Positions 10,027 through 28,187 of a DNA stretch of 28,482 bases are shown here, piece by piece. How positions within the stretch are numbered: the first letter of the stretch is position 1; each line of letters starts with the position of its first letter. The stretch lies in IMG/VR virus record IMGVR_UViG_3300025030_000355, positions 1 to 28,482 of that record; one strand, given 5' to 3'. The DNA comes from a virus. A model generated the notes under the pieces. That model saw only the letters and a list, made by a program, of their open reading frames with translations. It did not search any database and was not told the origin of the DNA. A program made the position numbers and the translations under genes.

Positions 10027-10034
10027 AGTTGATA

Positions 10035-12696: not shown

Positions 12697-14451
12697 ATGA
12701 AATGTTCCTACCCAAGTTGCAATACTGTTATTCTGAATAACAATAAATATTGCTCAAAAGAATGTCGATACGACCACGTTAAATTGAAATCACGTGAAAC
12801 TCGACAATGTTCAAATCCTCAATGTACAAATACTTTTGAAGTTGGCAAATCATCGACTAAAACTTCTTGCTGCCTAAAGTGCTCAAGGAAATCACCAGAA
12901 TATCTTGCTCAAATTAAAACAACTAATATTGCAAAGTATGGAGTTGATAATCCTTCTAAGTCTCCAGAAATAATCGAAAAGATCCGAAAAACCAATCAGA
13001 AAAAATACGGAGTAGATAGTTACTATCAAACCGAAGAATTTAAAGAAAAGTCGAAAAAAACAAAAAAAGAAAAATATAATGAAGAATTTTTTAATAACCG
13101 TGATAAATGTAATGCAACCAAAACTGAAAAATATGGCGATCCAACATATTGCAATAAAGAGCAAATAATAACAACTAACCAAGAAAGGTACGGAGCAAAT
13201 TCATTTACATCAACAGAAGAAGGTAAAGAAAAGGTTACTACAACTAATCTAGAACGATATGGGGAAGAATGTTATTTTGATACAGACAAATTTAAAGAGA
13301 CATACCAACAAATGCTCAGTGAGCGAGGAGTTATTAATATATCACAATTACCAGAAGTTAAACAAAAAAACAGAGACAGCCATCTTAAACGATTCTTTGG
13401 ATTATTAATTAATTCAGACAGACTTAAAGAAAAAGTTATTCCGTTGTTTTCAATTAATGATTATAAAGGAGTAAAAGAAGGAAATCAATACGAATTTCAA
13501 TGTAAAATATGTTCAACAAAATTCTATACTACTATTGATAACGGAACAATACCAAGATGTCCAAAATGTTATCCTCCGTTAAATGGTGAATCAATTGGTG
13601 AAATCGAACTATATGAATTTATTTGTACATTAGTTGGAAAAGAAAATGTTATACGTGGTAATCGTAAAATTTTAAAAGGCCGTGAGCTTGATATTTATAT
13701 TCCATCAATGAGTATTGCGATAGAGTATAATGGATTATATTGGCACACTGATCTTCATGGTAAAGGTACAAAATCATATCATATTTCAAAAACCGAGGAA
13801 TGTGAGAAATTAGGAATACAATTAATACACGTTTGGGATTTTGAATGGCTGAACAAACAAGAAATTGTAAAATCAATCATTAGACAAAAATTGAGTTATG
13901 TAAAGACAAAAATATATGCTCGTAAATGTAATGTGCAAGAAATTAATAATGAACAATATACTAGATTTATTTTAGACAACCATTTACAAGGCATTAAGTC
14001 TTCGTCTATTAAAATTGGATTATTTCAAAACGAAGAACTATTGTCAATTATGTCATTTAGTAAAAAAGGTATAAATCAGTATGAAATGGATCGGTTTTGT
14101 AATAAAATTAATACAAGTGTAATCGGGGGAGCGGATAGACTATTCAAATATTTTTTGAAAATTTATAACCCAAAATTCATCACTACATTTTCAGACAGAC
14201 GATTTTTTGATGGTAAAATATATTTGAAATTAGGATTTGAATTTAAAGGTTTCACCTCACCTAATTACCAGTACACCCATCGATTTAAGGTTATTGGTTC
14301 GAGACTTAAATTTCAGAAACATAAACTAAAAGGACTGCTTGAAATATTTGATCCTAATTTATCGGAATGGCAAAATATGCAATTGAATAAATATGACAGA
14401 ATTTGGGACTGTGGACATAGAAAATTTACATGGAGTAATCATTCTCACTGA
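12697..14451 (+). CDS. Large homing endonuclease paralogue: YGV repeats, PD-(D/E)XK, GNAT-like tail
   Basis: A 584-residue paralogue of the gene at 3881. It has cysteine knuckles at the N-terminus (CSYPSCNTV, CSKEC, CSNPQCTNTF, CCLKC), about six K-Y-G-V/D repeats between about 75 and 215, and a PD-(D/E)XK core near 329-350 (RELDIYIPSMSIAIEYNG, then WH). A GNAT-like region lies at about 408-531 (DNHLQGIKSSSIKIGL, ITTFSDRRFFDGKIYLKLGF), and the end is WQNMQLNKYDRIWDCG. It lies between the tail tube region and tagged gene J. Its leader is the structured element at 12615-12691, with GGAG six bases before ATG. Confidence 0.8.
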   Translation: MKCSYPSCNTVILNNNKYCSKECRYDHVKLKSRETRQCSNPQCTNTFEVGKSSTKTSCCLKCSRKSPEYLAQIKTTNIAKYGVDNPSKSPEIIEKIRKTNQKKYGVDSYYQTEEFKEKSKKTKKEKYNEEFFNNRDKCNATKTEKYGDPTYCNKEQIITTNQERYGANSFTSTEEGKEKVTTTNLERYGEECYFDTDKFKETYQQMLSERGVINISQLPEVKQKNRDSHLKRFFGLLINSDRLKEKVIPLFSINDYKGVKEGNQYEFQCKICSTKFYTTIDNGTIPRCPKCYPPLNGESIGEIELYEFICTLVGKENVIRGNRKILKGRELDIYIPSMSIAIEYNGLYWHTDLHGKGTKSYHISKTEECEKLGIQLIHVWDFEWLNKQEIVKSIIRQKLSYVKTKIYARKCNVQEINNEQYTRFILDNHLQGIKSSSIKIGLFQNEELLSIMSFSKKGINQYEMDRFCNKINTSVIGGADRLFKYFLKIYNPKFITTFSDRRFFDGKIYLKLGFEFKGFTSPNYQYTHRFKVIGSRLKFQKHKLKGLLEIFDPNLSEWQNMQLNKYDRIWDCGHRKFTWSNHSH

Positions 14452-14489: not shown

Positions 14490-14819
14490 ATGAAACCCTC
14501 ACAACTCAAAGATCTCATTAAAGAACAAGTCAAATTAATACTTACCGAAGCCCCAGAAGGTACCAAAAACGTATCTCATCATTTACTTGGGCTTCGTCAA
14601 GAAAGACTTGTAATTTCAGGTCCAACCGTTCCACAACTAAAAGACCAAATTATCAAAATTGCAAAAAAGCATGACCCAGAATCTAAAATGCAATTTTTTC
14701 CTGCCACTCAAAAAGTAGTTGGATTATTTGCCGTCGCGAAACTTCAATTTATGCAGCGTGATATGAAACAACTCGACAAATCCATTAAACTGGAATTTAA
14801 AGCCAGACAATTAAAATAG
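14490..14819 (+). CDS. Tagged protein J
   Basis: A 109-residue protein starting MKPSQLKDLIKEQVKLILTE, the shared tag with L-T-E at 18-20 followed by A-P-E. The cargo has a compact alpha/beta look (LVISGPTVPQLKDQIIKIAK, then KMQFFPATQKVVGLFAVAKL) and a basic helical end. It is the only tagged gene on the far side of gp19 and was perhaps separated from the main chain by endonuclease insertions. No family recognised. Confidence 0.7.
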   Translation: MKPSQLKDLIKEQVKLILTEAPEGTKNVSHHLLGLRQERLVISGPTVPQLKDQIIKIAKKHDPESKMQFFPATQKVVGLFAVAKLQFMQRDMKQLDKSIKLEFKARQLK

Positions 14820-14870: not shown

Positions 14871-15437
14871 ATGAAAAAAGGTTATTATGTAATTGCAAAA
14901 GAGTTTTCGTTTTGCTACTCGCATCGAGTGCACAGTCAGTCCCTTAACTCGGAATATTCAATTGACACAGCTTGTAAATGTAGACACCTCCATGGTCATC
15001 AAGGTACCGTTAATGTCTATATAAAAGCAGACAAACTAAAAGACGGAATGTGCACAGATTTTAAACATTTGAATTGGTTTAAAAAATTCATCGACGAAAC
15101 CCTAGACCATAAATTTATCATGGACAGTAGTGACCCATTACTCTATAATATCTTTCCAGCATTAAATTTCCAGGAATTTGGTACAGACCCTGCCGATACA
15201 TATGACGTCCATTCCGAAGGATTCAACACCGTCAAACCATCGTTATATTCCGCAGCCGATACTCACATTCAAGAACTTTATGAAGGACTTGTCGTGGTAC
15301 CATTTGTACCTACATCGGAAAATTTATCAAAGTGGTTATTTGATATTGTGTCGAAGAAGATGAAAAAAATTGGAGTTACCGTCAGTCAAGTACAATTTTG
15401 TGAAACACCTAAATCACAGGCAAATTATCATGTATAA
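14871..15437 (+). CDS. queD: 6-carboxytetrahydropterin synthase, QueD
   Basis: A 188-residue T-fold enzyme of the 7-deazaguanine pathway, converting dihydroneopterin triphosphate to 6-carboxytetrahydropterin. Likely zinc ligands are H18, H41 and H43 (CRHLHGHQG). A nucleophilic cysteine is C35 or C37, the D-H pair is D79-H80, and PTSEN (147-151) plus the glutamate of CETP (E178) complete the site. It is longer than bacterial QueD (about 120 residues) owing to an insert near 85-145. A sigma70-like promoter precedes it. It works with FolE (17409) and QueE (15744), encoded in the same array. Confidence 0.88.
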   Translation: MKKGYYVIAKEFSFCYSHRVHSQSLNSEYSIDTACKCRHLHGHQGTVNVYIKADKLKDGMCTDFKHLNWFKKFIDETLDHKFIMDSSDPLLYNIFPALNFQEFGTDPADTYDVHSEGFNTVKPSLYSAADTHIQELYEGLVVVPFVPTSENLSKWLFDIVSKKMKKIGVTVSQVQFCETPKSQANYHV

Positions 15438-15738
15438 CACCGAAGCTGCACTGGTACAAGAATTTATAAAAAATGTCAACCAAGTAGGTGCCCATTTAGA
15501 AGTAATTTCTTCTGCAAAGATTTTACTTGGTCGTGATAATAATGTATTTCCTGTTGCACATGACCCAGCTATATTTTTTGCATGTATTGTTGGATACCTT
15601 GAATCTGTTGAAGAATATGAATTGTGTGGCCGCCTCATTAAAAATAAAAAAAAGGTATTAAAAAGATTGGTTCCGATGGATGATCACTATAAAAAAGTGT
15701 TAGCTTCCTTTAAAGATTTATTTGACGACTTAATTTAA
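15430..15738 (+). CDS. Hypothetical protein between queD and queE
   Basis: A 102-residue protein. I use ATG 15430, which overlaps the end of queD by 8 bases; an in-frame start further upstream would lie well inside queD. The sequence (MYNTEAALVQEFIKNVNQVG, then HDPAIFFACIVGYLESVEEY) looks soluble and mostly helical with a basic middle. No family recognised. Its position between two steps of the deazaguanine pathway is the only clue to a role. Confidence 0.7.
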   Translation: MYNTEAALVQEFIKNVNQVGAHLEVISSAKILLGRDNNVFPVAHDPAIFFACIVGYLESVEEYELCGRLIKNKKKVLKRLVPMDDHYKKVLASFKDLFDDLI

Positions 15739-15743
15739 AAACA

Positions 15744-16502
15744 ATGCCTAAAACTTTAATAGAATCGTTCCCAACAGAAAGTAGAATTGCTGTAATAGAT
15801 GGAAGCTCAATATTAAATATTTCAGAATGTTTTATGGATACTGTTCAAGGAGAAAACTTTGCCGGTATTCCTTCGACATTTCTTAGATTACAGAATTGTA
15901 CACTCGCATGCGGCTGGTGTGATACTTTAGAAGTATGGAAACAAGGAAATCCATATTCAGTAAAAGAACTTATTGAAATATTTCAAAAAAATGGAACTTT
16001 AGACAAATTCAAACTTGGACAAAATTTAATATTTACCGGTGGCAGCCCATTGTTACAACAAAATGCATTAATTGAATTGATACATGGTTTAGTTAATGAA
16101 AACTCATTACCATTTATTCAAATCGAAAATGAATGTACTCGACTACCTGCTAATAGGTTAGTTGAATATATTTCAATTTGGAATAATTCACCAAAACTAT
16201 CAAATAGTGGGATGCGAAAAGAATTAAGATATAAACCAGACATTCTAAAATTTTTATCCAAATTAGAAAATAGTTGGTTTAAATTTGTCATTTCGAATAT
16301 GGAGGACTGGAGCGAAATTCAAAGAGATTTTTTAGATACAAATTTAATTCGAAAAGATCAAATTGTAATAATGCCAGAAGGACAAACTCGCGAACAATTA
16401 CAAAAGAATTACAATTTTGTAGTCAAAATGGCAGTTGAACATAATGTTAGAATGAGTGATAGAATGCATGTTACCATATGGAACAAAAAAACTGGTGTGT
16501 AA
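15744..16502 (+). CDS. queE: 7-carboxy-7-deazaguanine synthase, QueE (radical SAM)
   Basis: A 252-residue radical SAM enzyme that turns 6-carboxytetrahydropterin into 7-carboxy-7-deazaguanine. The cluster motif is C-x3-C-x2-C at C52, C56 and C59 (NCTLACGWCD), the FLRLQ segment before it is typical of QueE, and TGGSP (98-102) is the SAM-binding GGEP-like motif. The start MPKTLIESFP... with SECFMDTVQGENFAGIPSTF matches the substrate-side N-terminus of the family. It begins 5 bases after the previous gene. Confidence 0.9.
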   Translation: MPKTLIESFPTESRIAVIDGSSILNISECFMDTVQGENFAGIPSTFLRLQNCTLACGWCDTLEVWKQGNPYSVKELIEIFQKNGTLDKFKLGQNLIFTGGSPLLQQNALIELIHGLVNENSLPFIQIENECTRLPANRLVEYISIWNNSPKLSNSGMRKELRYKPDILKFLSKLENSWFKFVISNMEDWSEIQRDFLDTNLIRKDQIVIMPEGQTREQLQKNYNFVVKMAVEHNVRMSDRMHVTIWNKKTGV

Positions 16503-16546
16503 AATCAATTGAGATTTAGTGATAAACGAAAATTAAGTAATCAATC

Positions 16547-16750
16547 ATGAAATGTAAAATTTGCAACGAAGAAATTAATCTATCAGTTTTTGGTATGCCT
16601 AATAATATTTGTTATGGATGTTTTACCGAACCAGAGAAGAAAGAAGTACTAAATAAAAATTTGAAAGAAGTAAAAATTAAAAAAAAATTAAAAAGTGAAA
16701 AGACAAATCATACACGAAAAAATCTTTACAAAACACTACGATGGAATTAG
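16547..16750 (+). CDS. Small zinc-ribbon-like protein
   Basis: A 67-residue protein starting MKCKICNEEINLSVFGMPNN and continuing to ICYGCF. Two CxxC pairs (C3/C6 and C22/C25) form a likely zinc site, followed by a Lys-rich tail. The 3' end overlaps the GTG start of the next gene by 56 bases, long for this genome, so one of the two ends may be mis-set. Function unknown. Confidence 0.6.
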   Translation: MKCKICNEEINLSVFGMPNNICYGCFTEPEKKEVLNKNLKEVKIKKKLKSEKTNHTRKNLYKTLRWN

Positions 16751-17003
16751 AAGTAGGATTCTATTTTCAGATTTACCAACGAATATATTACCAACAGATT
16801 TTATTGATATTGTAAAAGTAGAAGGGTATTATTCAGAAAATAATTCATGGGACGACCATACTATATTAATTGTAACTCGCGACAGAGAAGAAACTGATGT
16901 AGAATTTGAAAAATCAAAAAAATTCCAGGAAAAGAGAAAGGAAATGAGTAGACAAGCTCGTTTAGAGCAATATCAAAAATTAAAAAAAGAATTTGAACCA
17001 TGA
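16695..17003 (+). CDS. Hypothetical protein with charged coiled-coil end
   Basis: A 102-residue protein with GTG 16695 as the first start in frame. The front half (SRILFSDLPTNILPTDFIDI, VKVEGYYSENNSWDDHTILI) looks like a beta-sheet domain. From residue 75 to the end it is a Lys/Glu/Arg coiled coil. Its TGA overlaps the next ATG at 17000. The overlap with the previous gene may mean the true start is further in. Confidence 0.6.
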   Translation: MKRQIIHEKIFTKHYDGIRSRILFSDLPTNILPTDFIDIVKVEGYYSENNSWDDHTILIVTRDREETDVEFEKSKKFQEKRKEMSRQARLEQYQKLKKEFEP

Positions 17004-17173
17004 ATTACTTTTTAGAAATAGCGTTCTCCGGTTTCTGGCAATTCGTTGGATGTTGGATACTTTTATGTACGGCAGCAACAATTCCACTTGCAATAATCAA
17101 TCGAGTACTTCGCCATTGGACTCTTATCAAACACGGATATCCACCACCACATTGTAACGCCGACGGAGAATGA
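17000..17173 (+). CDS. Small single-span membrane protein
   Basis: A 57-residue protein with one clear hydrophobic segment (about 7-33: AFSGFWQFVGCWILLCTAAT, IPLAII) followed by a basic, then Pro/His/Cys-containing tail ([14 protein letters not shown]). ATGA overlaps link it to genes on both sides, including the next membrane protein. No family recognised; it may be a partner of the protein at 17170. Confidence 0.65.
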   Translation: MNYFLEIAFSGFWQFVGCWILLCTAATIPLAIINRVLRHWTLIKHGYPPPHCNADGE

Positions 17174-17418
17174 TTATACAGATTTTAGGATGGCTGAGCA
17201 CAGCCCTTGTGCTCGTTGGATATTTTTTAAACTCACAACAAAAAGTTAAATTGGCAATGATAACTTGGATAACCGGGGATATTGGATGGATAATTTATGA
17301 CATTGGAATAAATAACCTCAGCCACGCGGTTTTATCATTTGTGATTATTGGTTTAAATATTTACGGAATTATTAATATATTAAGAAATAATAAAATCAAT
17401 AAATCGGTATGGCCATAA
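17170..17418 (+). CDS. Small three-span membrane protein, transporter-like
   Basis: An 82-residue protein with three hydrophobic segments (about 3-19, 28-46 and 51-72). [20 protein letters not shown] and [14 protein letters not shown] recall small transporter half-units of the SemiSWEET/PnuC type, with polar and Trp residues in the helices. It sits in the array just before folE and overlaps it by 10 bases, so a role in precursor or cofactor uptake is imaginable. A holin-like or host-membrane role is equally possible. The family call is weak. Confidence 0.6.
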
Positions 17419-18002
17419 AAAAACAAAACAACGCAAAAATAATAGAAAACGCAACAGTTAAATTTGGTGAGTTTTTAACTGCCTTAGGATTTGACTGGGC
17501 TCAAGATCCAAATCAAAAAGATACACCTGCACGAGTTGCAAAAATGTATGTTAATGAATTATACCAAGGCATATTTCATCCTGCACCAAAAATTACCGCG
17601 TTTGATAATACCGATAAATATGATGGTATAGTTTTTGAAGGCAACATTACCTTAAATTCTTCGTGCGCCCATCACTGCTTACCATTTATTGGTAAAGCCC
17701 ACGTCGCATACATTCCAGGAAAAAAAGTAATTGGATTAAGTAAATTAAATAGAATAGTTGAATACTTTGCAAAACGGCCACAAATCCAAGAATCACTTAC
17801 CATGCAAATTCACGATTATGTAAATACAATTTGTGAAGGGAATAATGGAGTAGCCGTTGTAATCGAAGCAGCCCACCAATGTACATGCATCCGAGGTGTC
17901 GGACACAATAGTACAATGATGACATCAAAACTTTCCGGTGCATTTACAAAGGCAGATACCAAAAGAGAGTTTTATGAATTTATTTCAAACTTAAGAAAGT
18001 AA
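17409..18002 (+). CDS. folE: GTP cyclohydrolase I, FolE
   Basis: A 197-residue enzyme converting GTP to dihydroneopterin triphosphate, the first step of 7-deazaguanine (and folate) synthesis. The family motifs are complete: [69 protein letters not shown]. Zinc ligands are the cysteine and second histidine of CAHHC and the cysteine before IRGV. With QueD and QueE in the same array it points to 7-deazaguanine rather than folate. Overlaps the upstream membrane gene and ends 4 bases before the polymerase start. Confidence 0.93.
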
Positions 18003-18006
18003 ATAG

Positions 18007-20721
18007 GTGTATAAAAATTGTTATTTTCATAAAACTACCAATTCCATTTATTTATGGGACGACATAAAAGGACTTTTAAAAATACCATACAATCATTATG
18101 GTTTTATAAAAGACCCAAATGGAGACCATGTAAATTTATTTGGTGATAGAGTTCGTAAAGTATCGCGTTGGGGAGTCGAAGACGAAAAAAATATGTTCGA
18201 ATCTGACCTCCGACCTGTCACCCGGACTTTAATTGATAGGTATTTGGATTCTGACGATATGTCAATTAATGTCAATGTAATGACCATTGACATCGAGGTG
18301 GCAAAGAATAAACTTACTGGTTATAGCACAGTTGAAAACGCCGACAATACAATTACAGCAATTGCCATTCATGAATCACTAAATAATAAAGCGTATGCTT
18401 TTATTTTAGATGTTAAAAGTAAAATACAATTAAAAACACTTGATTCAGCCGAAATTTTTTCTTGTAAAACCGAAGAAGAATTACTACAAAAATTTTATAA
18501 GAAATACACTGAAATCCATCCGGACATTATTACTGGATGGAATATTGATGAGTTTGATATTCCATACTTATACGGCCGCACCATTAAGGTATTAAATAAG
18601 AAATTTGCCAATGCACTTTCACCAATTGGTATAGTTGAAAAAAGATTTTCCCATGACGATGATGCATATTCATTTGCCATTGCAGGAGTTAGCTGTTTGG
18701 ATTATATGACACTATACAAAAAATTTACATATTCAGAGGAATCATCATATGCGTTAAATGCAATTGCTATTAAGGAACTTAGACAAACCAAACTTGAATA
18801 CGATGGCGATTTGGATATGCTATATGAAAGTGACATTGAACGATTTGTACGATATAACATTAAAGACATACAACTTGTAATTGATTTAGATAAAAAATTG
18901 GAATTTATTTCGTTGGCACGAGGAATTTGTCATAAAGGCCACGTGGTGTATGAAGATGTTTTTGCTTCATCAAAATCACTTGAAGGAGCCTCACTTACAT
19001 ATTTAAAAAGAATGGACATTGTTGCTCCTAATAGGCAACACCCTATTTCATTGAAAATTGGACCAAAGCAATATAAAGGAGCAGCTAAAATAATTGTAGT
19101 CGACACCATTCCATTAAGAGTACCTGCAACGGGACAATTAAAAATACGCAAAACAAAATCTAGTTATTTCAAAGTAAAGTATAAAGGATTTAAAGATGAT
19201 TACTTTATTCTTGAAGAACCGCTTCCCGAAGAAATTAATAATTCAATGGAACTAACGCTTGATTTAATTGGTGCGTATGTTAAGGAACCACAAGTCGGTA
19301 GACATGACTGGGTGTATGATTTGGATTTGACCGCTCTATATCCCATGATTATCATTTCATTGGGTATTTCACCAGAAACAAAAGTCGGGCGAGTATTGAA
19401 TTTTGATGGCAAACAATTTGTAAATAAACTTGAAAAAATATATGAAGTCAAAATTGGCAGCCATGTTGATAAGTACAATACCAATGACTTTATAAAGTAT
19501 TTAACTGACAAAAATTATTCAATTTCAGCATCGGGTGTATTATACAATAAAAATGTAAAAGGATTCATTCCAAGTATTTTGGAAGCGTGGTTCAATGAAC
19601 GGGTCGAGTATAAGGACTTAATGAAAAAGTATAAGAAAGAAGGCGACAAAGATAAAACAAAGTTTTACCATAATCGCCAGCTCATACAAAAAGTTATTTT
19701 GAATAGTTTCTATGGAGTTCTTGCTCTTCCATCATTTCGTTTCTACGATGTGGCGAACGCAGAATCGGTGACCGCAGGCGGCCAACAGCTCATCAAATTT
19801 ACTGCAACTATTGCAAATCAATACTATAACCAAGTATGTGGTTCCAAAGGAATTGATTATGCAATATATTCTGACACAGATTCTTCCTTCTTTTCATCCT
19901 GGCCAATTATACAAAAAAGATTTCCTGATGTTAAAATAAATGATATACCTAGATGTACCAACGAAACACTAAAGATTGCAACTGAAGTACAAACATTTAT
20001 TAATAAGTCATATGATTTATATGCCAACCGATTTCACAATATTAAATCACATAGGTTCTTCATTAAGCAAGAACTCATAGCCCGGGCGGGTCTTTGGATT
20101 GCAAAGAAACGATATGCACAACTTATTATTAATGAAGAAGGAATTATGTTACCCGCTCCAAAACTTGATGTAAAGGGAATCGATGTGGTTCGTTCAAATT
20201 TTCCAAACGCATTTAGAACGTTAATGTCCGATGTAATAACAAAAATACTCGAAGGGTCCGACGCAACTATCATAAATAAATTTATTGGAGAATTTAGGAA
20301 TGGAGTACCAGCATTGTCACTATTGGAAATAATGTTTCCGTCTGGCATATCCGATATTAAAAAATATGAGTCAATACAAATGGAATTATTTAATTTTCCA
20401 AAAGGCACACCCGCCCATGTCAAGGCCGCTATAGCATATAATAATATTTTACAAAAAGGAAAACTAATCAATATCAAACCGATTACAAACGGCGATAAGA
20501 TTAAATATACATACCTCAAGCAAAACCCATATGGGCTCGAATCAATGGCACTTAAAGGATTCGAAGATCCTATTCAAATTGAAAAATTTATACGACAATA
20601 TATTGACCATGAAAAGGTATTTGATACTGCACTTGGTAATAAATTACAGGATATTTTCAACGCAATGAAATGGGGCTCTGTAATCTCAAACACAGCTGTT
20701 TCTGATTTTTTTAGTTTTTGA
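18007..20721 (+). CDS. 43: Family B DNA polymerase (T4 gp43-like)
   Basis: A 904-residue replicative polymerase with 3'-5' exonuclease; T4 gp43 has 898 residues. It starts at GTG 18007. Exonuclease motifs: Exo I TIDIEVA (about 94-100), Exo II ITGWNIDEFDIPYLYGR, Exo III YNIKDIQLVIDLD. Polymerase motifs: A DLDLTALYPMII (about 438), B KVILNSFYGVLALPSFRFYD, C YSDTDSS (about 621), then KKRY. The C-terminal AVSDFFSF fits a clamp-binding peptide. A GTG start and a poor Shine-Dalgarno may keep expression low. In T4 gp43 is followed by regA; no regA is seen here. Confidence 0.97.
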   Translation: MYKNCYFHKTTNSIYLWDDIKGLLKIPYNHYGFIKDPNGDHVNLFGDRVRKVSRWGVEDEKNMFESDLRPVTRTLIDRYLDSDDMSINVNVMTIDIEVAKNKLTGYSTVENADNTITAIAIHESLNNKAYAFILDVKSKIQLKTLDSAEIFSCKTEEELLQKFYKKYTEIHPDIITGWNIDEFDIPYLYGRTIKVLNKKFANALSPIGIVEKRFSHDDDAYSFAIAGVSCLDYMTLYKKFTYSEESSYALNAIAIKELRQTKLEYDGDLDMLYESDIERFVRYNIKDIQLVIDLDKKLEFISLARGICHKGHVVYEDVFASSKSLEGASLTYLKRMDIVAPNRQHPISLKIGPKQYKGAAKIIVVDTIPLRVPATGQLKIRKTKSSYFKVKYKGFKDDYFILEEPLPEEINNSMELTLDLIGAYVKEPQVGRHDWVYDLDLTALYPMIIISLGISPETKVGRVLNFDGKQFVNKLEKIYEVKIGSHVDKYNTNDFIKYLTDKNYSISASGVLYNKNVKGFIPSILEAWFNERVEYKDLMKKYKKEGDKDKTKFYHNRQLIQKVILNSFYGVLALPSFRFYDVANAESVTAGGQQLIKFTATIANQYYNQVCGSKGIDYAIYSDTDSSFFSSWPIIQKRFPDVKINDIPRCTNETLKIATEVQTFINKSYDLYANRFHNIKSHRFFIKQELIARAGLWIAKKRYAQLIINEEGIMLPAPKLDVKGIDVVRSNFPNAFRTLMSDVITKILEGSDATIINKFIGEFRNGVPALSLLEIMFPSGISDIKKYESIQMELFNFPKGTPAHVKAAIAYNNILQKGKLINIKPITNGDKIKYTYLKQNPYGLESMALKGFEDPIQIEKFIRQYIDHEKVFDTALGNKLQDIFNAMKWGSVISNTAVSDFFSF

Positions 20722-20723
20722 GT

Positions 20724-20751
20724 TTGATATTTACAAAACTTTTACTATATT
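20724..20751 (+). promoter_or_regulatory. Sigma70-type promoter downstream of the polymerase gene
   Basis: TTGATA (20724-20729), a 16-base spacer, then TATATT (20746-20751). Its flanking sequence resembles the promoter at 14822 (ACTTT...TATATTA). The predicted start of transcription (about 20758) falls on the ATG at 20757, so the first gene would be leaderless or only the later genes would gain. Confidence 0.5.
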
Positions 20752-20756
20752 ACTAT

Positions 20757-20957
20757 ATGAAAATAATATTACATTCAAAGAACGTTAAAAATTTTAACTT
20801 ATCACAAGATTTAATTAATGATGTTAAGATTTATGATGAGAAAAATCTAGTTAATTGTTATTCTACGTTGCAATTTGCCATTGATTCAAAAAATCATGAT
20901 AAAGTATATTGTCGACATTTTACTTTTGATAAACCTACTAAATGGGAAATATTTTAA
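20757..20957 (+). CDS. Small hypothetical protein
   Basis: A 66-residue protein from ATG 20757 (an in-frame TTG at 20718 overlaps the polymerase end and is less likely). It begins MKIILHSKNVKNFNLSQDLI and ends HFTFDKPTKWEIF. No family recognised. It lies between the polymerase gene and a group of modification genes, and a promoter-like element lies directly on its start. Confidence 0.55.
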   Translation: MKIILHSKNVKNFNLSQDLINDVKIYDEKNLVNCYSTLQFAIDSKNHDKVYCRHFTFDKPTKWEIF

Positions 20958-20968
20958 ACTAAAATTAT

Positions 20969-21400
20969 ATGCACGGTAAATCAATATGGCAAGGTATCGA
21001 AGTCGAAGGACGTTTGTCCGATATAATGACATTGTATATTCGAGATGGAAACTTGCCAATAGGTTGGGGAAATTATCCGCACGTATATTTTACAATTGAA
21101 TATATTAGAAAGGCAATTATCGATAATAAATGGGGACAAATCCTTGCAGTATTAGATGAAACCAAGAATATGGTTACAATAGAGTCGGACCAACAAACAT
21201 TCGATGATATTCCAATTTTTCTTTTTAATAGGGTCCATGTAATTTATAGAATAAAGATTCCAGCCAACCATATATCAAAATTAAAAAAGATGGACACGAT
21301 TAGTATGGATGAAGGATGGTACCATTGCACACAAATAACCAAACATAATTGCCTGATAACGACGCCGGATGATTACAAATTTGATACCGAAATAAAATGA
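20969..21400 (+). CDS. Hypothetical protein next to T-fold protein
   Basis: A 143-residue soluble protein (MHGKSIWQGIEVEGRLSDIM, then GNYPHVYFTIEYIRKAIIDN and a C-terminal DEGWYHCTQITKHNCLITTP). It looks like a mixed alpha/beta fold. No family recognised. Its TGA overlaps the ATG of the QueD-like gene at 21397 and it precedes the glycosyltransferase and DpdA genes, so it may belong to the modification module. Confidence 0.7.
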   Translation: MHGKSIWQGIEVEGRLSDIMTLYIRDGNLPIGWGNYPHVYFTIEYIRKAIIDNKWGQILAVLDETKNMVTIESDQQTFDDIPIFLFNRVHVIYRIKIPANHISKLKKMDTISMDEGWYHCTQITKHNCLITTPDDYKFDTEIK

Positions 21401-21762
21401 GGCAAAACATAATAATTTCATTGCAAGTAGAGGGGCTACATTGTTGGCCGGCGGCGAAGGAAGTATTTCCAGATGTTGCATTCCTTTCAAATCCACATAG
21501 ACATATTTTTCATATATGCTGTAAGAAACGAGTTAGTCACAGCGACAGAGATGTGGAAATTATACGTTTCAAACGAAGTGTACTTGCATATCTAAATAAA
21601 ACGTATGGTACATCAATCATAACAGATGTAAATTATCGACACCTAGAATTTGGCTCAAAGTCATGTGAAATGATATGCGAAGAACTACTTGAGAAATTTG
21701 ATTTGGAGTATGTAAGTGTATTAGAGGACGGAGAAGTAGGTGCGGAGCTTTATAAAAATTAA
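21397..21762 (+). CDS. Small QueD/PTPS-like T-fold protein
   Basis: A 121-residue protein that looks like a degenerate 6-pyruvoyl-tetrahydropterin-synthase/QueD fold. H15 (GLHCWPAA) and the pair H34/H36 (NPHRHIFHI) match the three zinc histidines. GSKSCEMICEELLEKF (about 86-101) takes the place of PTAENLA, and VSVLEDGEVGAEL (106-118) resembles the V-x-V-x-E end of the family. The nucleophilic cysteine and the D-H pair of true QueD are not obvious. So it may bind a pterin or deazaguanine without QueD chemistry. The assignment is from pattern alone. It lies two genes before dpdA. Confidence 0.6.
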   Translation: MRQNIIISLQVEGLHCWPAAKEVFPDVAFLSNPHRHIFHICCKKRVSHSDRDVEIIRFKRSVLAYLNKTYGTSIITDVNYRHLEFGSKSCEMICEELLEKFDLEYVSVLEDGEVGAELYKN

Positions 21763-21765
21763 TTT

Positions 21766-22926
21766 ATGAAAAAGAGAAAAATATTTTACTTTCCGTTAGA
21801 GCCTCTTAAGAGCCGATATACATACCAACTCTGTACCAGCTGGATTCCTTCGACTTTTTTGAGATATAAAGAAACTCATAAGTTTATTCGAGTAGATGGG
21901 GATTTTGATTCCAATGAAGAAATTAAAGTGGGAGCGGTGCTCGATGCCATCGGACGTGGTAAATTTTCACTATCACAATGTGCAACCTTTCTCGAAATGA
22001 TTCGCACCAACCAAGTAACTGATGATTCGATTATTTACTTACAGGATTATTTCACGCCGGGATTAGATTCAATCTTTTATGCTTTAGATTTATACAATAT
22101 CAAAAACATAAAAATCTATGCAATGCTCCACGCACAATCAGTCGACGAATATGACTTTACATATCCGATGCGAAATTGGATGCGACACTATGAATTAGGA
22201 CAAGATAAACGAATGGCAGGAATATTTGTTGGTTCGTCTATACATAAAGAACAATTACGAGCCGCAGGATTCACTGCTCCGATTCATGTAGTTTCATTAC
22301 CAATACACAAACAACTGACAATCGATGTATTACCAAATTACAAGGAACTTGAAAAGAAGGATGTGGTTGTATATTCATCGCGATTAGACAAAGAAAAGAA
22401 TCCACACTTTATGATGGAAGTTGCTAAAAAGTTTTTAGAACAATATGAAAAGGTAGAGTGGCATTTCACAACTTCGGGTAAGTCAATAAGAAGCATGCTC
22501 CCCGGAGTAGTTGAGGCAATGTATAAATTGGCTAAAGAACAACCTAGATTTAAAATATTAACTGGGTTGACTAAAGAAGAATATTACACCGAGCTTGCAA
22601 CTTGTCGCGTACAATTTAATAGTTCGTTGCAGGACTATGTAAGTTGGACGGTAATTGAATCGACTATATTTGGTGCCGACATTGTATTTCCGAAGTTTAG
22701 ATCATTTCCAGAATTTATTTCAGAGGATAGAATGTACACTCCGTTTGATGTAACAAGTGCAATGAAAGTAATATTGGCAGCATTTTCTGCACCGAGAACA
22801 CATGATTATATCGGTGACATTTCAGATATGGGCCGCCAACTCGAAGCATACATTATGGTAAATGATGTTACAAACGAACTAAATGTTTGGCACGAAACTG
22901 AATACATTAAAACACTTTTGAAATGA
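21766..22926 (+). CDS. GT-B fold glycosyltransferase (GT4-like)
   Basis: A 386-residue glycosyltransferase with two Rossmann-like halves. The second half shows the nucleotide-sugar-binding pattern of GT4: VVVYSSRLDKEKNPHFMMEV (about 206-225), a W-H-F-T-T-S-G strand end, and WTVIESTIFGADIVFPKFRS then FPEFI (about 302-326) in place of E-x7-E with G-x-P. The acceptor half has an MLHAQS segment. Its stop overlaps the dpdA start by 4 bases (ATGA), so the two are co-translated. DNA-base glycosylation is a known phage strategy (T4 glucosylates its hydroxymethylcytosine). That the acceptor here is a 7-deazaguanine in DNA is inference; protein or host-surface targets remain possible. Confidence 0.8.
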   Translation: MKKRKIFYFPLEPLKSRYTYQLCTSWIPSTFLRYKETHKFIRVDGDFDSNEEIKVGAVLDAIGRGKFSLSQCATFLEMIRTNQVTDDSIIYLQDYFTPGLDSIFYALDLYNIKNIKIYAMLHAQSVDEYDFTYPMRNWMRHYELGQDKRMAGIFVGSSIHKEQLRAAGFTAPIHVVSLPIHKQLTIDVLPNYKELEKKDVVVYSSRLDKEKNPHFMMEVAKKFLEQYEKVEWHFTTSGKSIRSMLPGVVEAMYKLAKEQPRFKILTGLTKEEYYTELATCRVQFNSSLQDYVSWTVIESTIFGADIVFPKFRSFPEFISEDRMYTPFDVTSAMKVILAAFSAPRTHDYIGDISDMGRQLEAYIMVNDVTNELNVWHETEYIKTLLK

Positions 22927-24143
22927 CTTTAGACAATAAACAATTACAGCGTAAATTTATTTATTTCCCATCATTTGATGCGGGCCCTGCGGGTAATTCG
23001 TATAAAAAGGATTTAAGATTTAAAGATGGTACACCATATCGTTTTTATCAAGAAGGATTTCCAAAAAATTATCTTCACAAAAGATTTCTATTTCCTGCAG
23101 GGCACAACTATAAAAATATGAATCTCCGTAAGCAATTCCAATTTCCTCCTGGAACGATTGTATTTGGAGATTCTGGAGGATACCAAATTGCCACAGGAAT
23201 TTTAAAATGGGACTCTACTATTCGGCAGAAAATATTTGAATGGCTTGAAGAAAATTCGGATATTGCAATGAATATAGATATTCCTACTCGTGGAATGTAT
23301 GAAGGTAAATTCGAAGAATGCCTTAAAATATCATCTGAAAATTTTAAGTATTTTCACGACAACCAAACAGGTAAAACTCGTTTCTTAAATGTACTGCAGG
23401 GCACTAATCAAGGAGAGTATAAACGGTGGTATGACGAAGTTAAACAATATGATTTTCAAGGATGGGCAATAGGAGGCGGCCGCAATATTTATAATTTAAT
23501 GTCTGCACTTGCCATTTTACTCGAAGGAAAAGAACATCTAAACAAAAATAATAAAGTATTGCATATATTAGGAGTAAGTAAAATTGCAGACTTTTTATTA
23601 CTTGGGCAATTGCAACGCTCATTAAATGAAATCGGCAGTAATATGCAAGTCACAACCGATAGTTCGTCTCCATCACGTTCAACCGTATATGGCTTTTGGT
23701 ACACAGGGTTTGATATAAAAGAAGAAGTGTTTAGGTGTGTACATATTCCACGAAAAGACAAGGCCAATATACTTGACACTTGTACATTCGGAAGGTTACC
23801 TGCAATGTGCCCTGAAATTGATAAAGTTATTTTTGATAATTTTACACTCGATGAATTTATGGAAATGAAAACCGAGCACTATGCAGCCATGGTTTTACAT
23901 AATTTTGGTATATTCATCGATGCAATTAATCAATGTAACGAATTGGTATATTCTGACAGATATATTTTAGATCAATTGTTATGTCACGATTCAGCACTTA
24001 TTTTGAAAAGCATTGATGAAATGATTAAAACCGGTAAACCAATGGAAGTATTTAATAAGTATCTACCAATTTACAAAAAGGTTGCAGCAAAACAAGACGC
24101 AGCTGCAGGCCAAGAAACAGTCAACGAATTTTTCCAACTTTAA
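22923..24143 (+). CDS. dpdA: DpdA-type 7-deazaguanine DNA transglycosylase (TGT-like)
   Basis: A 406-residue TGT-family protein of the phage DpdA type, which exchanges guanine in DNA for a 7-deazaguanine. VFGDSGGYQIATG (D83) matches the general-acid Asp motif of TGT; NIDIPTRG (D119), FLNVLQGT and GWAIGGG (181-186) line the base pocket. TTDSSSPSRS (D246) corresponds to the nucleophile Asp motif. A late cluster of cysteines (CTFGRLPAMC) may be the zinc site. It is preceded by a glycosyltransferase gene with an ATGA overlap and followed by the sliding clamp gene. Together with FolE, QueD and QueE it predicts modified guanines in this phage's DNA. Confidence 0.88.
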   Translation: MTLDNKQLQRKFIYFPSFDAGPAGNSYKKDLRFKDGTPYRFYQEGFPKNYLHKRFLFPAGHNYKNMNLRKQFQFPPGTIVFGDSGGYQIATGILKWDSTIRQKIFEWLEENSDIAMNIDIPTRGMYEGKFEECLKISSENFKYFHDNQTGKTRFLNVLQGTNQGEYKRWYDEVKQYDFQGWAIGGGRNIYNLMSALAILLEGKEHLNKNNKVLHILGVSKIADFLLLGQLQRSLNEIGSNMQVTTDSSSPSRSTVYGFWYTGFDIKEEVFRCVHIPRKDKANILDTCTFGRLPAMCPEIDKVIFDNFTLDEFMEMKTEHYAAMVLHNFGIFIDAINQCNELVYSDRYILDQLLCHDSALILKSIDEMIKTGKPMEVFNKYLPIYKKVAAKQDAAAGQETVNEFFQL

Positions 24144-24161
24144 TTTTTAATTTATATTTTT

Positions 24162-24872
24162 ATGAAAAAATCACTATTACAAAACTTTATTAACAAATAC
24201 CATTTAGCAGGAATTGCTGAATCAGTGAAAGTAGTATCCAATGGTAAATTAGAATGCAACTTCGTATCCGACGATCAGAATCTTGTCGGTAATGTTACAC
24301 TTAATTCCAATCAACTTGAAAATGCAGAACTTGGTATTTATCAAACATCACAACTCAATAAGTTACTTACAGCCCTTGACGAAGATTTGGATATTAAACT
24401 TGACAAAGCAAATGATACCGTTTTCTCAATGGTACTCAGCGACAAAAAAACAAATGTAAAATTCATGCTCGCCGATTTGTCAATTATTAAAAAAACACCG
24501 GCACTTAAAGATTTACCTGCTTTTGACATTGAACTTGAACTTGATTCAGATGTCGTGGACAAATTTATTCGCGCAAAGAACGCATTATCCGATGCAAATA
24601 TTTTTGCGGTAAAATGTGATGGCAAAACAACCCAATTCATTCTTAACTATTCAACTACATTAACCAATCGAATTACATTTGATGTTAAAACCACAAAGGC
24701 AAGTAACACCGACATGGTTGCATTTTCCGCAAATACGTTCAAAGAAATTTTAGTTGCAAATAAAGGCATGAAAGGAACAATGAAAATCAGCTCCAAAGGT
24801 ATTGCCAAGATTGAATTTAGTGATAAAGAGTTCTCCTGTTTTTACTACATTGTTAAACAATTAATATCATAA
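24162..24872 (+). CDS. 45: DNA polymerase sliding clamp (T4 gp45-like)
   Basis: A 236-residue clamp; T4 gp45 has 228 residues. It forms a trimeric ring around DNA that tethers gp43 and, in T4, also activates late transcription. It starts MKKSLLQNFINKYHLAGIAE and shows the clamp pattern of repeated beta-strands (VKVVSNGKLECNFVSDDQNL, and a second domain from about 125). MKGTMKISSKGIAKIEFSD (about 203-221) and the final YYIVKQLIS are typical. If late transcription works as in T4, this clamp should act at the late elements found upstream of the structural genes. Confidence 0.92.
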   Translation: MKKSLLQNFINKYHLAGIAESVKVVSNGKLECNFVSDDQNLVGNVTLNSNQLENAELGIYQTSQLNKLLTALDEDLDIKLDKANDTVFSMVLSDKKTNVKFMLADLSIIKKTPALKDLPAFDIELELDSDVVDKFIRAKNALSDANIFAVKCDGKTTQFILNYSTTLTNRITFDVKTTKASNTDMVAFSANTFKEILVANKGMKGTMKISSKGIAKIEFSDKEFSCFYYIVKQLIS

Positions 24873-25002
24873 AATATCAAATAATAAATAGGGATGAATT
24901 AACCCAAATTAACGCTTCTGGAGAGCAGCCAATAGGTACTCAAAGAAAGAAGAAAAATCAAAATAAAAATTTAGTTTTATAGATTTTATAAGATTTATCA
25001 TT

Positions 25003-25941
25003 ATGTTTAATGAAGAACACACATTGTGGGCAGAAAAATTCCGTCCTAAAAAACTTGAAGATTATATTGGAAATGAATCAATAATCGATAAGTTTCGTAT
25101 TTGGCTGCAGAGTGGAGAAATACCACATATTCTTCTACATTCACATTCTCCTGGAACAGGGAAAACCTCCGCTGCTAAAATGTTGGCTATGAACGTCGAC
25201 GCCGACATTTTATATGTAAATGCATCTGACGAAAACTCAGTTGATGTAATGAGAGATAAAATTAAAAATTTCTCAAGTACAATTGGTTTCAAAAAATGGA
25301 AGATTGTGATACTCGACGAGATGGATTTCCTTAGTGCCGGGGCAATGGCAATCTTAAGAAATTTAATGGAATCGTTTAGTAAGACAACCAGATTCATTCT
25401 AACTTGTAATTATATTGAAAAAGTAATCGATCCAATCCAGTCACGGTGTCAAGTATTTCATATTCAAACCATAAGTAAAAAGGACATTGCAAAAAGATTG
25501 GTTTATATATTACAAACCGAAAATGTGTCGTTTGATATGAATGATGTTGCTGCAATTGTTAATTTGAATTACCCAGACATCCGTCGAGTTATTAATATGG
25601 CACAGCAACATTCTGTAAGTGGAAGGCTTGTGCTTGATAAACAATCGGTCATAGAAAATGATTACACTACAAAAGTAATTACAATTCTTAAAGATACCAG
25701 TTCGCCAAAAGATAAGCTGGCAACCATTCGCCAATTAATAGCAGACGCAAAAGTACGGACATTTGAAAGTTTGTATCGCGAACTATTTGCCACAATTGAT
25801 GATTGGGCTATTGGCCATGTCGGACCATGCCTATTGATAATGGCAGAAGCACAATATAAAGATGCTTTTGTAGTTGCAAAGGATATGAATTGTGCAGCGA
25901 TGTTTATGCAGATTATAAATGAAATGAACCAAACCAATTAA
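25003..25941 (+). CDS. 44: Clamp loader large subunit (T4 gp44-like AAA+ ATPase)
   Basis: A 312-residue AAA+ ATPase; T4 gp44 has 319 residues. It starts LWAEKFRPKKLEDYIGN, a standard clamp-loader opening. Walker A is SPGTGKTS (49-56), Walker B VILDEMD (102-108), sensor 1 FILTCNY (131-137) and the SRC arginine-finger motif 147-149. The C-terminal collar domain follows from about 225. The start lies 130 bases after gp45 with no clear Shine-Dalgarno. It works with gp62 (26193) to load gp45. Confidence 0.95.
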   Translation: MFNEEHTLWAEKFRPKKLEDYIGNESIIDKFRIWLQSGEIPHILLHSHSPGTGKTSAAKMLAMNVDADILYVNASDENSVDVMRDKIKNFSSTIGFKKWKIVILDEMDFLSAGAMAILRNLMESFSKTTRFILTCNYIEKVIDPIQSRCQVFHIQTISKKDIAKRLVYILQTENVSFDMNDVAAIVNLNYPDIRRVINMAQQHSVSGRLVLDKQSVIENDYTTKVITILKDTSSPKDKLATIRQLIADAKVRTFESLYRELFATIDDWAIGHVGPCLLIMAEAQYKDAFVVAKDMNCAAMFMQIINEMNQTN

Positions 25942-25951
25942 ACTATAAATT

Positions 25952-26191
25952 ATGATAGTAGGACCAGACGGAAACACTCCGCCGCCACGTAAACCACAAG
26001 TACAAGTCGATGTAATGTCACAACCAAACATCAGATGTACTGAATGCAACGGACTTTATTTTGAGCCGGTAATGATGTTTAAAAAAGTAAGTAAATTATT
26101 AACAGGTACACATCAAGATCAAGTGGCTCCTATCCAAGTAATGCGTTGCTGTGATTGCGGAACACCTTGTGAGGAGCTCACGCCTAAATGA
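25952..26191 (+). CDS. Small zinc-ribbon protein between gp44 and gp62
   Basis: A 79-residue protein. A Pro-rich start (IVGPDGNTPPPRKPQVQVDV) leads to a zinc ribbon: CTECN (29-33) and CCDCG near 65-69. Its stop overlaps the gp62 region. Zinc ribbons in this position are common as small accessory proteins in phage replication clusters, but I cannot name a function. Confidence 0.7.
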   Translation: MIVGPDGNTPPPRKPQVQVDVMSQPNIRCTECNGLYFEPVMMFKKVSKLLTGTHQDQVAPIQVMRCCDCGTPCEELTPK

Positions 26192-26192
26192 A

Positions 26193-26645
26193 ATGGAAAG
26201 GAAACCACGCACACCAATTGATTTTATTAAGGATTTAACCGAAAGGAAAACTCCATGGTCAAGTCTTAGTGAAAATGACCAGAAAGGCTTTAGCGTCTTT
26301 ATCATTAACCTTTTCTTGAGCATGCACCTAGATTTAGTTGAGTTCATTAATGATTTACAACGATACACAATAGGACAACTGACATCGGAGCAGGTGTATA
26401 AATTGTATTTAGATTTGTTACCGAAAAGTAAGTTACCTTTCTGTAAGTTTATAAAAGCAACGAAGGGTGATAAATATAATCCTGAATTGGTTAAACTTAT
26501 TGCCAATCACTTTTATATTTCAAAACGAATTGCCTGTGAGTATATTAATTTGTATATTTCTGTAGACAAAGAAAAACTCCGAGACATTGTAAAACTTTAC
26601 GGCAAAACTGAAAAAGAAATTACAGCACTTACAAAATATGAATGA
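26193..26645 (+). CDS. 62: Clamp loader small subunit (T4 gp62-like)
   Basis: A 150-residue, mostly helical protein; T4 gp62 has 187. I use ATG 26193 rather than a GTG at 26151 buried in the previous gene. The segments LSENDQKGFSVFIINLFLSM and LDLVEFINDLQRY match the pattern of gp62 relatives (a conserved F-I-I/V-N-R/L start, then helices). LPFCKFIKATKGDKYNPELV stands where others have K-R-F-x-K-W. The C-terminal helix ends KLYGKTEKEITALTKYE. Position next to gp44 supports the call, which is otherwise moderate. Confidence 0.72.
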   Translation: MERKPRTPIDFIKDLTERKTPWSSLSENDQKGFSVFIINLFLSMHLDLVEFINDLQRYTIGQLTSEQVYKLYLDLLPKSKLPFCKFIKATKGDKYNPELVKLIANHFYISKRIACEYINLYISVDKEKLRDIVKLYGKTEKEITALTKYE

Positions 26646-27306
26646 ACTGATCGGTCCAGGACAATTTGGGTATGGTAAAAAATACTCACAAACAAAAATG
26701 GAAACAGACCCGGCTAAAATAGTATGTGGACCAATCCCACATCAAGACCCTATGAATGTAGTATATGGACCACCGCCAACTGATTGGAATGAAATACTTA
26801 AACAACTGGGCATGCAACTTCCAATGGAAGAAAAATTCGACCGACTCGGTCCAACTGGTTGTATAACTAAAAATAAACTTAATAAAGACTTGCAAGAAAT
26901 GAAAAAAGAATTAATACAAGACAGCCCAACCCTTAAACATCCAAACGACACACCTACCAAACCAGTGTCATTAGCAATTGATACTGCCGAACATGAATAT
27001 CCACAAACCACACAAATGTTTAAAGATATCATGAACGCACAATATGAACTATGGTGCAAAAAAATGTTATCATACGGGGCATCAAATATATCACTTGGTT
27101 CTGACTTACAAAAAAACGAAGATGTAAGAATAAGTTTGACGGGCATTTGGTTTAGAATGGCTGATAAAGTCGCGCGGATAAAACAATTGGTTCTTTTAAA
27201 TAAAGAGAATACATTAAAAGACGAAACAATAAATGACACTTATGTCGACCTATCAATTTATAGCATTATAGCACAGATCGTCAAACGAAAAGTGTGGGGA
27301 AAATGA
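26638..27306 (+). CDS. Nmad1/DUF1599-like protein with N-terminal extension
   Basis: A 222-residue protein. Residues 1-120 are a Pro/Gly-rich, probably flexible extension. Residues 123-222 fit the DUF1599 family, named nucleotide modification associated domain 1: WCKKMLSYGASNISLGSD (139-156), ISLTGIWFRMADKVARIKQL (165-184) and KDETINDTYVDLSIYSII (194-211). That is the family's K-x-x-x-YG, R-x-x-D-K-x-x-R and E-x-x-x-D-T-x-x-D-L pattern. The family is associated by genome context with DNA-base modification in phages, which suits this window. Overlaps gp62 by 8 bases and the next gene by ATGA. Confidence 0.75.
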   Translation: MNELIGPGQFGYGKKYSQTKMETDPAKIVCGPIPHQDPMNVVYGPPPTDWNEILKQLGMQLPMEEKFDRLGPTGCITKNKLNKDLQEMKKELIQDSPTLKHPNDTPTKPVSLAIDTAEHEYPQTTQMFKDIMNAQYELWCKKMLSYGASNISLGSDLQKNEDVRISLTGIWFRMADKVARIKQLVLLNKENTLKDETINDTYVDLSIYSIIAQIVKRKVWGK

Positions 27307-27536: not shown

Positions 27537-27840
27537 AGACCTACTCGAAAAAACCAAGGACTTTCATTGTAAAGTAATGGAATTGCACAATATAGGTATT
27601 GATATCGACCAAATTATATTTAGTTTAGAATCGGTAAATGAAAAACTATGGGTACATATTCTAACACCAGAAGGCGCCGAGTGGGTGAATTGGTTTTTAT
27701 ATGAACGCGGATATGCTTTTGGTGAAGAAGTATTTGAGGTAAAAAAATACCTCAAAGCATATGATCAAAATAAAAAAGAAATTTGTAAAGATGTCAAAGG
27801 ACTTTATAATATGCTTGTCACTGATAAATACGTTAAATGA
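27517..27840 (+). CDS. Hypothetical protein
   Basis: A 107-residue soluble protein (MTYQEFKDLLEKTKDFHCKV, then WVHILTPEGAEWVNWFLYER and a Lys-rich end). It is probably an alpha/beta protein. No family recognised. Its stop overlaps the start of the interrupted nuclease gene by ATGA. Confidence 0.7.
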   Translation: MTYQEFKDLLEKTKDFHCKVMELHNIGIDIDQIIFSLESVNEKLWVHILTPEGAEWVNWFLYERGYAFGEEVFEVKKYLKAYDQNKKEICKDVKGLYNMLVTDKYVK

Positions 27841-28028
27841 AATCTGGATTTGTAAAAGGAGCATTACAATTTACAATCAGTGAAAAGAAACCTGAGCATA
27901 AGACCATTTCTTATTCTCAATTTTCCTTATTTCAAACTTGCCCACTTAGTTGGAAATTAAAATACATAGATAAGATTAAGGAAGATACTCCGAGTATCGC
28001 GCTCCTTTTTGGGAATATTTTTCATTAA
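27837..28028 (+). CDS. PD-(D/E)XK (RecB/Cas4-like) nuclease, 5' part, interrupted
   Basis: Sixty-three residues that match only the N-terminus of a RecB/Cas4-type PD-(D/E)XK nuclease: SYSQFSLFQTCPLSWKLKYI (about 25-44), then ALLFGNIFH followed by a stop. The S-x-S-x-x-x-x-x-x-C-P-x-x-W/Y/F start and the FG-x-x-x-H motif are hallmarks of the family. The catalytic core that should follow (about 150 residues more) is missing. The stop comes directly after the His of the motif, and a GIY-YIG endonuclease gene follows, so the gene is probably split by an intron or insertion, with the rest beyond the window. Confidence 0.7.
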   Translation: MKSGFVKGALQFTISEKKPEHKTISYSQFSLFQTCPLSWKLKYIDKIKEDTPSIALLFGNIFH

Positions 28029-28187
28029 AACATCATTATTTTTTGAGTTCTATATAATTATTAGTGGAACTTAAACACTACATAATGAATTATCTTTTAT
28101 CAAATAACAGGCAAGGGTGCAATATAATTACCTCCAATGGTAGTGTGTTGGTTCCACGCCCTTGCTCTGTTTCAATTAGGAGCCACC
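28029..28187 (+). other. Structured untranslated stretch, possible intron 5' part
   Basis: No coding frame crosses this stretch. It contains a folded element: GGCAAGG (28110-28116) pairs with CCTTGCT (28160-28166), enclosing TACC/GGTA (28129-28132 with 28139-28142) and GTGTG/CACGC (28143-28147 with 28155-28159, 7-base loop). This gives a three-way-junction layout close to a tRNA without a D arm, but at 57 bases it is too short for a normal tRNA and its loop is not a T loop. It may be part of a group I intron core or a control structure for the following endonuclease. Confidence 0.4.

Follow-up and report, generated by a model that had tools for sequence, protein, structure and literature searches.

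Sugars on the bases of phage DNA are known for pyrimidines, as with the T-even glucosyltransferases, phage GT-B enzymes that act on 5-hydroxymethylcytosine. Modification with 7-deazaguanine of the type found in phages 9g and Dp-1 involves DpdA, FolE, QueD, QueE and QueC, and according to PMC6884629 DpdA is considered a base-exchange enzyme that works on DNA. The cassette of Cellulophaga phage phiST combines FolE, QueD and QueE with a small QueD-like protein, a small protein resembling tRNA-guanine transglycosylases (TGTs) of a type here called ST42, and a kinase-like ATPase (PF13238). We analysed a modification cassette in the viral record IMGVR_UViG_3300025030_000355 (28,482 bases, T4-like in make-up, hereafter the window), concentrating on the + strand between positions 14871 and 27306. 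As in 9g and Dp-1, FolE, QueD, QueE and a TGT-fold base exchanger are encoded next to genes for polymerase and clamp in the window, which shares FolE, QueD, QueE and the small protein family with phiST. Unlike phiST, it encodes a glycosyltransferase (GT), and phages bearing this GT differ from 9g and Dp-1 in mostly lacking QueC and in having the extra small protein and the GT, while the window TGT lies outside the 9g-type profile. We favour the reading that the cassette makes a 7-deazaguanine and substitutes it for guanine in the phage DNA, and that the base is probably glycosylated, the chemistry being inferred from the genes. Deazaguanine modification of the phage DNA is likely, and glycosylation of that deazaguanine is more probable than not. 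The genes of the cassette, with the IEVEG gene packed against them, are the following.

14871..15437, + strand: QueD, 6-carboxytetrahydropterin synthase (PF01242, 1.1e-28), with the canonical Cys and HGH motif
15744..16502, + strand: QueE, radical S-adenosylmethionine (SAM) enzyme, 7-carboxy-7-deazaguanine (CDG) synthase (phrog_2076, 5.9e-49), CxxxCxxC present
17409..18002, + strand: FolE, GTP cyclohydrolase I (PF01227, 6.4e-51)
20969..21400, + strand: IEVEG protein, 143 aa, which occurs with the GT in other phages
21397..21762, + strand: small QueD-like protein, probable T-fold (phrog_17812, 7e-25), His triad and C-terminal Glu kept
21766..22926, + strand: GT4-fold glycosyltransferase by predicted fold, with weak Pfam and PHROG matches; the distinguishing gene of the cassette
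22923..24143, + strand: TGT-fold protein, probable DpdA-like DNA guanine transglycosylase, overlapping the GT gene by 4 nt

The AlphaFold2 model of the GT (mean predicted local distance difference test, pLDDT, 94.2) had a GT-B fold, and its listed PDB matches included sucrose-phosphate synthase, BshA, TarM and MshA at Z 24.9-27.1. BshA, MshA and TarM, GT4 enzymes among the closest listed folds (Z 24.9-26.3), differ from it in using small-molecule or polymer acceptors and are 10-16% identical to it. R206 and K211 were kept in 144 of 144 aligned sequences, D or E at position 290 in 143 and E298 in 142; the last two positions form the E/D-x7-E arrangement that we take to be the GT4 catalytic motif. 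Judged from the predicted structure, the window protein is a GT4-type GT-B enzyme with its catalytic motif intact. None of the PDB rows listed for the model was a T-even GT, a result that does not exclude kinship. The isoelectric point (pI) was considered as a sign of DNA binding and set aside as uninformative. The cassette of phage BUCT-ZZ01 contains a second GT4-like gene (L003:5007-6350; PF13692 3.4e-5, just below the cut-off).

Viral contigs scanned with the window TGT as a lone query gave no hits, after which the search for loci was seeded by alignments of the small protein and of the GT. The small-protein scan gave 80 loci from the best 80 of 579 relatives, and the GT scan gave 76 new loci from the best 80 of 335. 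In the 80 small-protein loci, the GT was present in 63, a TGT of any type in 74 and the ST42 type in 7, with no locus holding both GT and ST42 (Fisher's test 6e-6, a guide only). The 17 loci without the GT consisted of seven with ST42, three with type C DpdA (L010-L012), five with type A TGT, in which the small protein lay 0-2.2 kb from the end of the available stretch, and two with neither (L008, L024). Of the 76 new loci seeded from the GT, 64 contained the small protein, 70 a TGT and 73 at least one of these, and in the three remaining loci (L119, L125, L156) the flank was short or missing on one side or both. The pooled set of 146 GT loci, including the window and cultured phages, was compared with 13 ST42-type loci. 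The small protein was found in 133 of the 146, TGT types A, B and C in 111, 10 and 13, FolE in 103, QueE in 72, QueD in 62 and family B DNA polymerase (polB) in 103, whereas the 13 ST42 loci all had the small protein and contained neither a GT nor a TGT of types A, B or C. In every counted GT-TGT or GT-small-protein pair, the two genes were on the same strand.

Genes for sugar nucleotides were frequent within 10 kb of the GT. An NAD epimerase/dehydratase was found there in 54 of the 146 loci (0/13 ST42 loci), a cytidylyltransferase-like protein in 39 (2/13) and a cupin of the mannose-phosphate-isomerase type in 24 (0/13). A phosphoribosyltransferase, which could salvage the guanine released by base exchange, was present in 40 (2/13), and IMP dehydrogenase in 23 (0/13).

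The partner of the GT varied. On a GT tree of 76 sequences (68 labelled rows) the TGT partner type changed at least 11 times, a rough count given several long-branched rows and poor support for 27 of 73 inner branches in this quickly built tree; these changes make a single ancestral linkage an inadequate explanation. In the clade of 17 to which the window GT belonged (starred in the tree), the partner was of type A in 11 cases and of type C in 6. On contig L017 a GT 63% identical to that of the window lay within 4 kb of genes for a type C DpdA, the small protein, QueD, QueE and FolE. The type C TGT profile, built before the DpdA sequences of 9g and Dp-1 were fetched, matched them at 7.8e-46 and 1.4e-27; by these matches type C is the proven DpdA family. 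A profile-profile comparison of types A and C reached an hhalign probability of only 2%, which marks the two types as very divergent. Judged from gene content, the GT is the unusual part of the deazaguanine cassette, combined with three TGT types including the proven 9g-type DpdA.

Cultured phages repeated this pattern. The ACP17-type GT was found in 20 records: 11 PA5oct-like Pseudomonas phages, ACP17 (2 records), X1, Phosso, BUCT-ZZ01, Ep032 and 3 PhiXhv phages, all of which have a TGT-like gene (the duplicate ACP17 record was not checked separately). The small protein was present in 26 cultured records, 16 with the GT and 10 without (RHph_I1_18, Bakedbeans, D479, Ahp1, MA9V-3 and 5 Cellulophaga phages). 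ST42 was found in all six of the GT-less records that were opened, and the other four, all Cellulophaga phages, carry the same ST42 protein. Xanthomonas phage PhiXhv-12 has the same GT family and a TGT-like gene elsewhere in its genome; it differs from the window in having a Gat-QueC fusion, and the small QueD-like protein was not found in it. Its cluster consists of Gat-QueC, a PIG-L deacetylase, the GT and a GFO/IDH/MocA oxidoreductase, a setting that gives an independent hint that the GT goes with deazaguanine, and perhaps also with N-acetylglucosamine. A PhiXhv-12 protein annotated as an aminotransferase was rejected as such and proved to be Gat-QueC.

The assignment of the window TGT was carried by its predicted structure. 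By sequence the match was marginal (PF01702, E 3.5e-5, 23.5 bits against a cut-off of 26.3), PF01702 matched at E<=0.1 in only 2 of 28 aligned relatives, and a search of PDB sequences with the TGT profile gave no match. The structural model had a mean pLDDT of 78.8 with four low segments, and for each aligner all 50 of the 50 listed PDB rows were TGTs (Z 20.0-22.3 with one of the aligners). D83, D119 and D246, which we take from TGT enzymology to be the catalytic residues, were invariant in 28 of 28 aligned sequences. The predicted fold and the conserved Asp residues confirm that the window protein belongs to the TGT superfamily. With the type A TGT profile (TGTA), Dp-1 DpdA gave E 0.65 and 9g DpdA was not among the listed matches, so that 9g-type membership was not found; the NCBIfam DpdA model NF041059 scored 12.5 bits on the window TGT against a cut-off of 200.

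The set for CDG biosynthesis is complete in the window, with GTP cyclohydrolase I, a QueD of the 6-pyruvoyltetrahydropterin synthase (PTPS) type and radical SAM QueE. The motif residues of the window QueD are C37, H41, H43, D79-H80, E150 and E178. Of 69 aligned QueD-like proteins from the collected loci, 59 carried HGY where the metal-site motif HGH is expected, with upstream differences too; the window QueD is of the canonical HGH kind, unlike those 59. QueC (PF06508) exceeded its cut-off in 2 of 16 GT-bearing records (G005, G007), in none of the 4 contigs nearest to the window and in none of 5 cultured phages, phage X1 giving a match below the cut-off. QueC was not noted in the window, a fragment in which no search with the PF06508 model was made. 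Since QueC is mostly absent from the GT-bearing relatives, the phage route in the window lineage probably ends at CDG.

The small protein retained H15, H34, H36 and E110, each in 155-156 of 157 sequences, a His triad and Glu that we presume to be those expected of PTPS enzymes. Its match to the QueD profile was weak (hhalign E 6e-5, probability 65%), and no PTPS match was found for it in Pfam, with 48 members searched, or in PDB sequences; the motifs and the weak profile match make a T-fold probable. A decarboxylase of CDG has reportedly been given the name DpdL in a further paper, together with additional subfamilies of DpdA, said to include DpdA3 and DpdA4. The small protein is a candidate for DpdL, since phiST carries the same family. 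The IEVEG protein was found in 29 of 146 GT loci and in 0 of 13 ST42 loci. In five near relatives (L097, L100, L108, L117, L119) no small protein lay between IEVEG and the GT; the L117 contig has it elsewhere, and the other four contigs are short. By their hhalign match (94%), IEVEG and F13, a family that includes L005:6248-6733, appear to belong to a single superfamily; of the 23 loci with F13, 22 also have the GT. Between the small protein and the GT, an additional radical SAM protein is encoded at L022:10323-11621 (by PF04055) and L043:10278-11684 (by sequence likeness).

In the proposed route, FolE, QueD and QueE would convert GTP to CDG, as in the known pathway. The small protein would probably use a metal site to bind a ring resembling pterin or deazaguanine and would alter position C7, perhaps as a CDG decarboxylase. 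The TGT-fold enzyme would then excise guanine and insert the deazaguanine after replication, with DNA as its presumed substrate, and the GT, judged only by the company of its gene, would use a nucleotide sugar as donor to glycosylate the deazaguanine, whether this is still a free base or already part of the DNA. Many nucleases read guanine at its position-7 face, and protection from host nucleases is the likely gain. A sugared deazaguanine, if present, would widen DNA chemistry and add bulk at this face. About evenly balanced, in our judgement, is the broader proposal that widespread large phages, metagenomic and cultured, have, in place of guanine, a glycosylated 7-deazaguanine that derives from CDG with no need of QueC, and would thus carry a sugar-bearing purine in DNA, by means of a dedicated GT4 passed between three TGT types and often accompanied by sugar-nucleotide genes of its own and by a phosphoribosyltransferase that might recycle the released guanine. 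Among the titles and abstract openings listed in literature searches, none tied a GT to a deazaguanine DNA cassette, and a prior description is possible. Carriers include cultured phages, such as BUCT-ZZ01 (laboratory cyanobacterium) and PA5oct-like phages (PAO1), and the prediction is for this reason testable at once. The genes of the cassette also form a signature by which such phages could be sought in metagenomes; library preparation may lose modified DNA, according to PMC11515303.

The initial annotation had proposed that FolE, QueD and QueE lead to CDG and that DpdA inserts such bases in DNA. The gene matches and the predicted TGT fold give the sequence of CDG synthesis and base exchange good support. 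The name DpdA holds as far as the TGT fold and the invariant Asp residues go and fails at the 9g-type profile and the NCBIfam cut-off. For the QueD-like T-fold protein, the T-fold is suggested by the motifs and the weak profile match. The glycosyltransferase had been listed, and its unusual status had been missed.

Several points weigh against the glycosylated reading. The window TGT has no match to the proven DpdA profile, GT4 acceptors are diverse and include tetrahydrobiopterin (BH4) among the PDB rows, and the GT is not basic (median pI 5.49; type A TGTs similar, 5.87). If the small protein were a CDG decarboxylase, its product would offer at C7 neither an O nor an N that is an obvious acceptor. 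The window itself showed none of the sugar-nucleotide genes listed above, nor the other extra genes that lie near the GT elsewhere. At least four contigs were counted twice among the 146 GT loci (L062/L155, L071/L163, L072/L160, L076/L132) and many of the phages are related, so the counts are not independent and the Fisher value serves as a guide. L010, L011 and L012 combine the small protein with type C DpdA and have no GT, from which it follows that the GT is not always needed. These three loci also speak for an ordinary cassette that places CDG or 7-deazaguanine in DNA with no sugar, the GT acting elsewhere, on the cell envelope or another base; the sugar itself is conjectural, and phages often carry envelope-related GTs. 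Such a cassette is unlikely, given that the GT was accompanied by cassette genes in 73 of 76 GT-seeded loci, kept to their strand in all counted pairs and followed three TGT types through the changes on its tree.

Improbable, to a greater degree, is a role in tRNA, in which the TGT would act on host or phage tRNA and the GT would make a glycosylated queuosine-like base. Glycosylated queuosine occurs in animal tRNA, and the position of the window TGT outside the proven DpdA profile would suit this explanation. QueC is, however, mostly absent, and 7-cyano-7-deazaguanine (preQ0) and queuosine are therefore not expected from the phage enzymes. Furthermore, the same GT family accompanies 9g-type DpdA, which modifies DNA according to PMC6884629.

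The cassette lies among replisome genes. These neighbours and the other features of the region are the following.

15430..15738, + strand: open reading frame (ORF) separating queD from queE; its start codon is uncertain, and nothing in Pfam, PHROG or NCBIfam matched it at E<=1
18007..20721, + strand: gp43-like family B DNA polymerase (phrog_262, 2.3e-187), a neighbour outside the pathway
24162..24872, + strand: gp45-like sliding clamp (phrog_223, 5.9e-10), neighbour
25003..25941, + strand: gp44-like clamp loader (phrog_168, 2.9e-75), neighbour
26151..26645, + strand: gp62-like clamp loader subunit (phrog_225, 1.1e-16), start uncertain, neighbour
26638..27306, + strand: weak Nmad1 (DUF1599) protein (PF07659, 20.8 bits against a cut-off of 25; phrog_1485, 3.3e-10)

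The order on the + strand is QueD, the ORF with no function assigned, QueE, small ORFs, FolE, gp43, IEVEG, the small QueD-like protein, GT, TGT, gp45, gp44, a short ORF, gp62 and the Nmad1-like protein. Family matches and predicted folds bore out the earlier placement of the named genes on this one strand among gp43, gp45, gp44 and gp62. The overlapping starts were likewise found, at 21397-21400 (IEVEG and the small protein) and 22923-22926 (GT and TGT), 4 nt each, and the gap between the small protein and the GT is 3 nt. For the protein named Nmad1, the score against PF07659 stays below the Pfam cut-off. The GT was directly followed by the TGT in 25 other viral contigs, whose flanks, as far as they reach, repeat the order polB ... 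GT-TGT-clamp-clamp loader-gp62, with the exception of L118, where polB comes after the TGT; this recurrence makes the window arrangement more than chance. The initial annotation had taken the interleaving to suggest that modification is coupled in time, and maybe physically, to replication, and the conserved order in close relatives and polB in 103 of the 146 GT loci could be read in that way. We regard such coupling as very improbable. In phage 9g, dpdA, folE, queD and gat-queC come immediately after the genes for clamp and polymerase, and the que genes of Dp-1 are near dnaN, which points to a recurrent early-gene arrangement; in BUCT-ZZ01 the cassette is present and no polB match was found in the 17-kb stretch examined. 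In addition, the 9g genes modify plasmid DNA without phage replication, as stated in PMC6884629.

Equally doubtful is a pterin pathway, in which FolE and the two PTPS-like proteins would make a pterin glycosylated by the GT in the manner of cyanobacterial BH4 glucosyltransferases. These enzymes were among the fold matches of the GT (Z 22.6-23.9; 9v0l 23.9, 5zes 23.0), but they rank below BshA, TarM and MshA, QueE and TGTs have no known role in such a pathway, and the GT stands beside Gat-QueC in PhiXhv-12. Action of the GT on 5-hydroxymethylcytosine or hydroxymethyluracil, suggested by the T4-like phage and the known T-even GTs, has little probability, as only 5 of the 16 records with the GT gave a match to PF00303, the thymidylate synthase family that we take to include dCMP hydroxymethylase, and several of these records may be fragments.

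No tRNA was found in the window by ARAGORN, and an Rfam scan returned no RNA family, including no group I intron at the gathering score. Five small ORFs (5701-5943, 8877-9044, 9295-9633, 9702-9971 and 14490-14819) share an N-terminal motif like MKxSxLxxLIKECVKEVLxE, presumably akin to a capsid-targeting peptide with a gp21-type protease site. At 27837-28481, the start of a RecB-like exonuclease (phrog_69) breaks off at 28028, and a GIY-YIG endonuclease (PF01541) comes next, which makes an intron or insertion probable. Five proteins that by eye resemble free-standing homing endonucleases lie among the tail genes, at 285-1136, 3881-5680, 10029-11075, 11666-12502 and 12697-14451.

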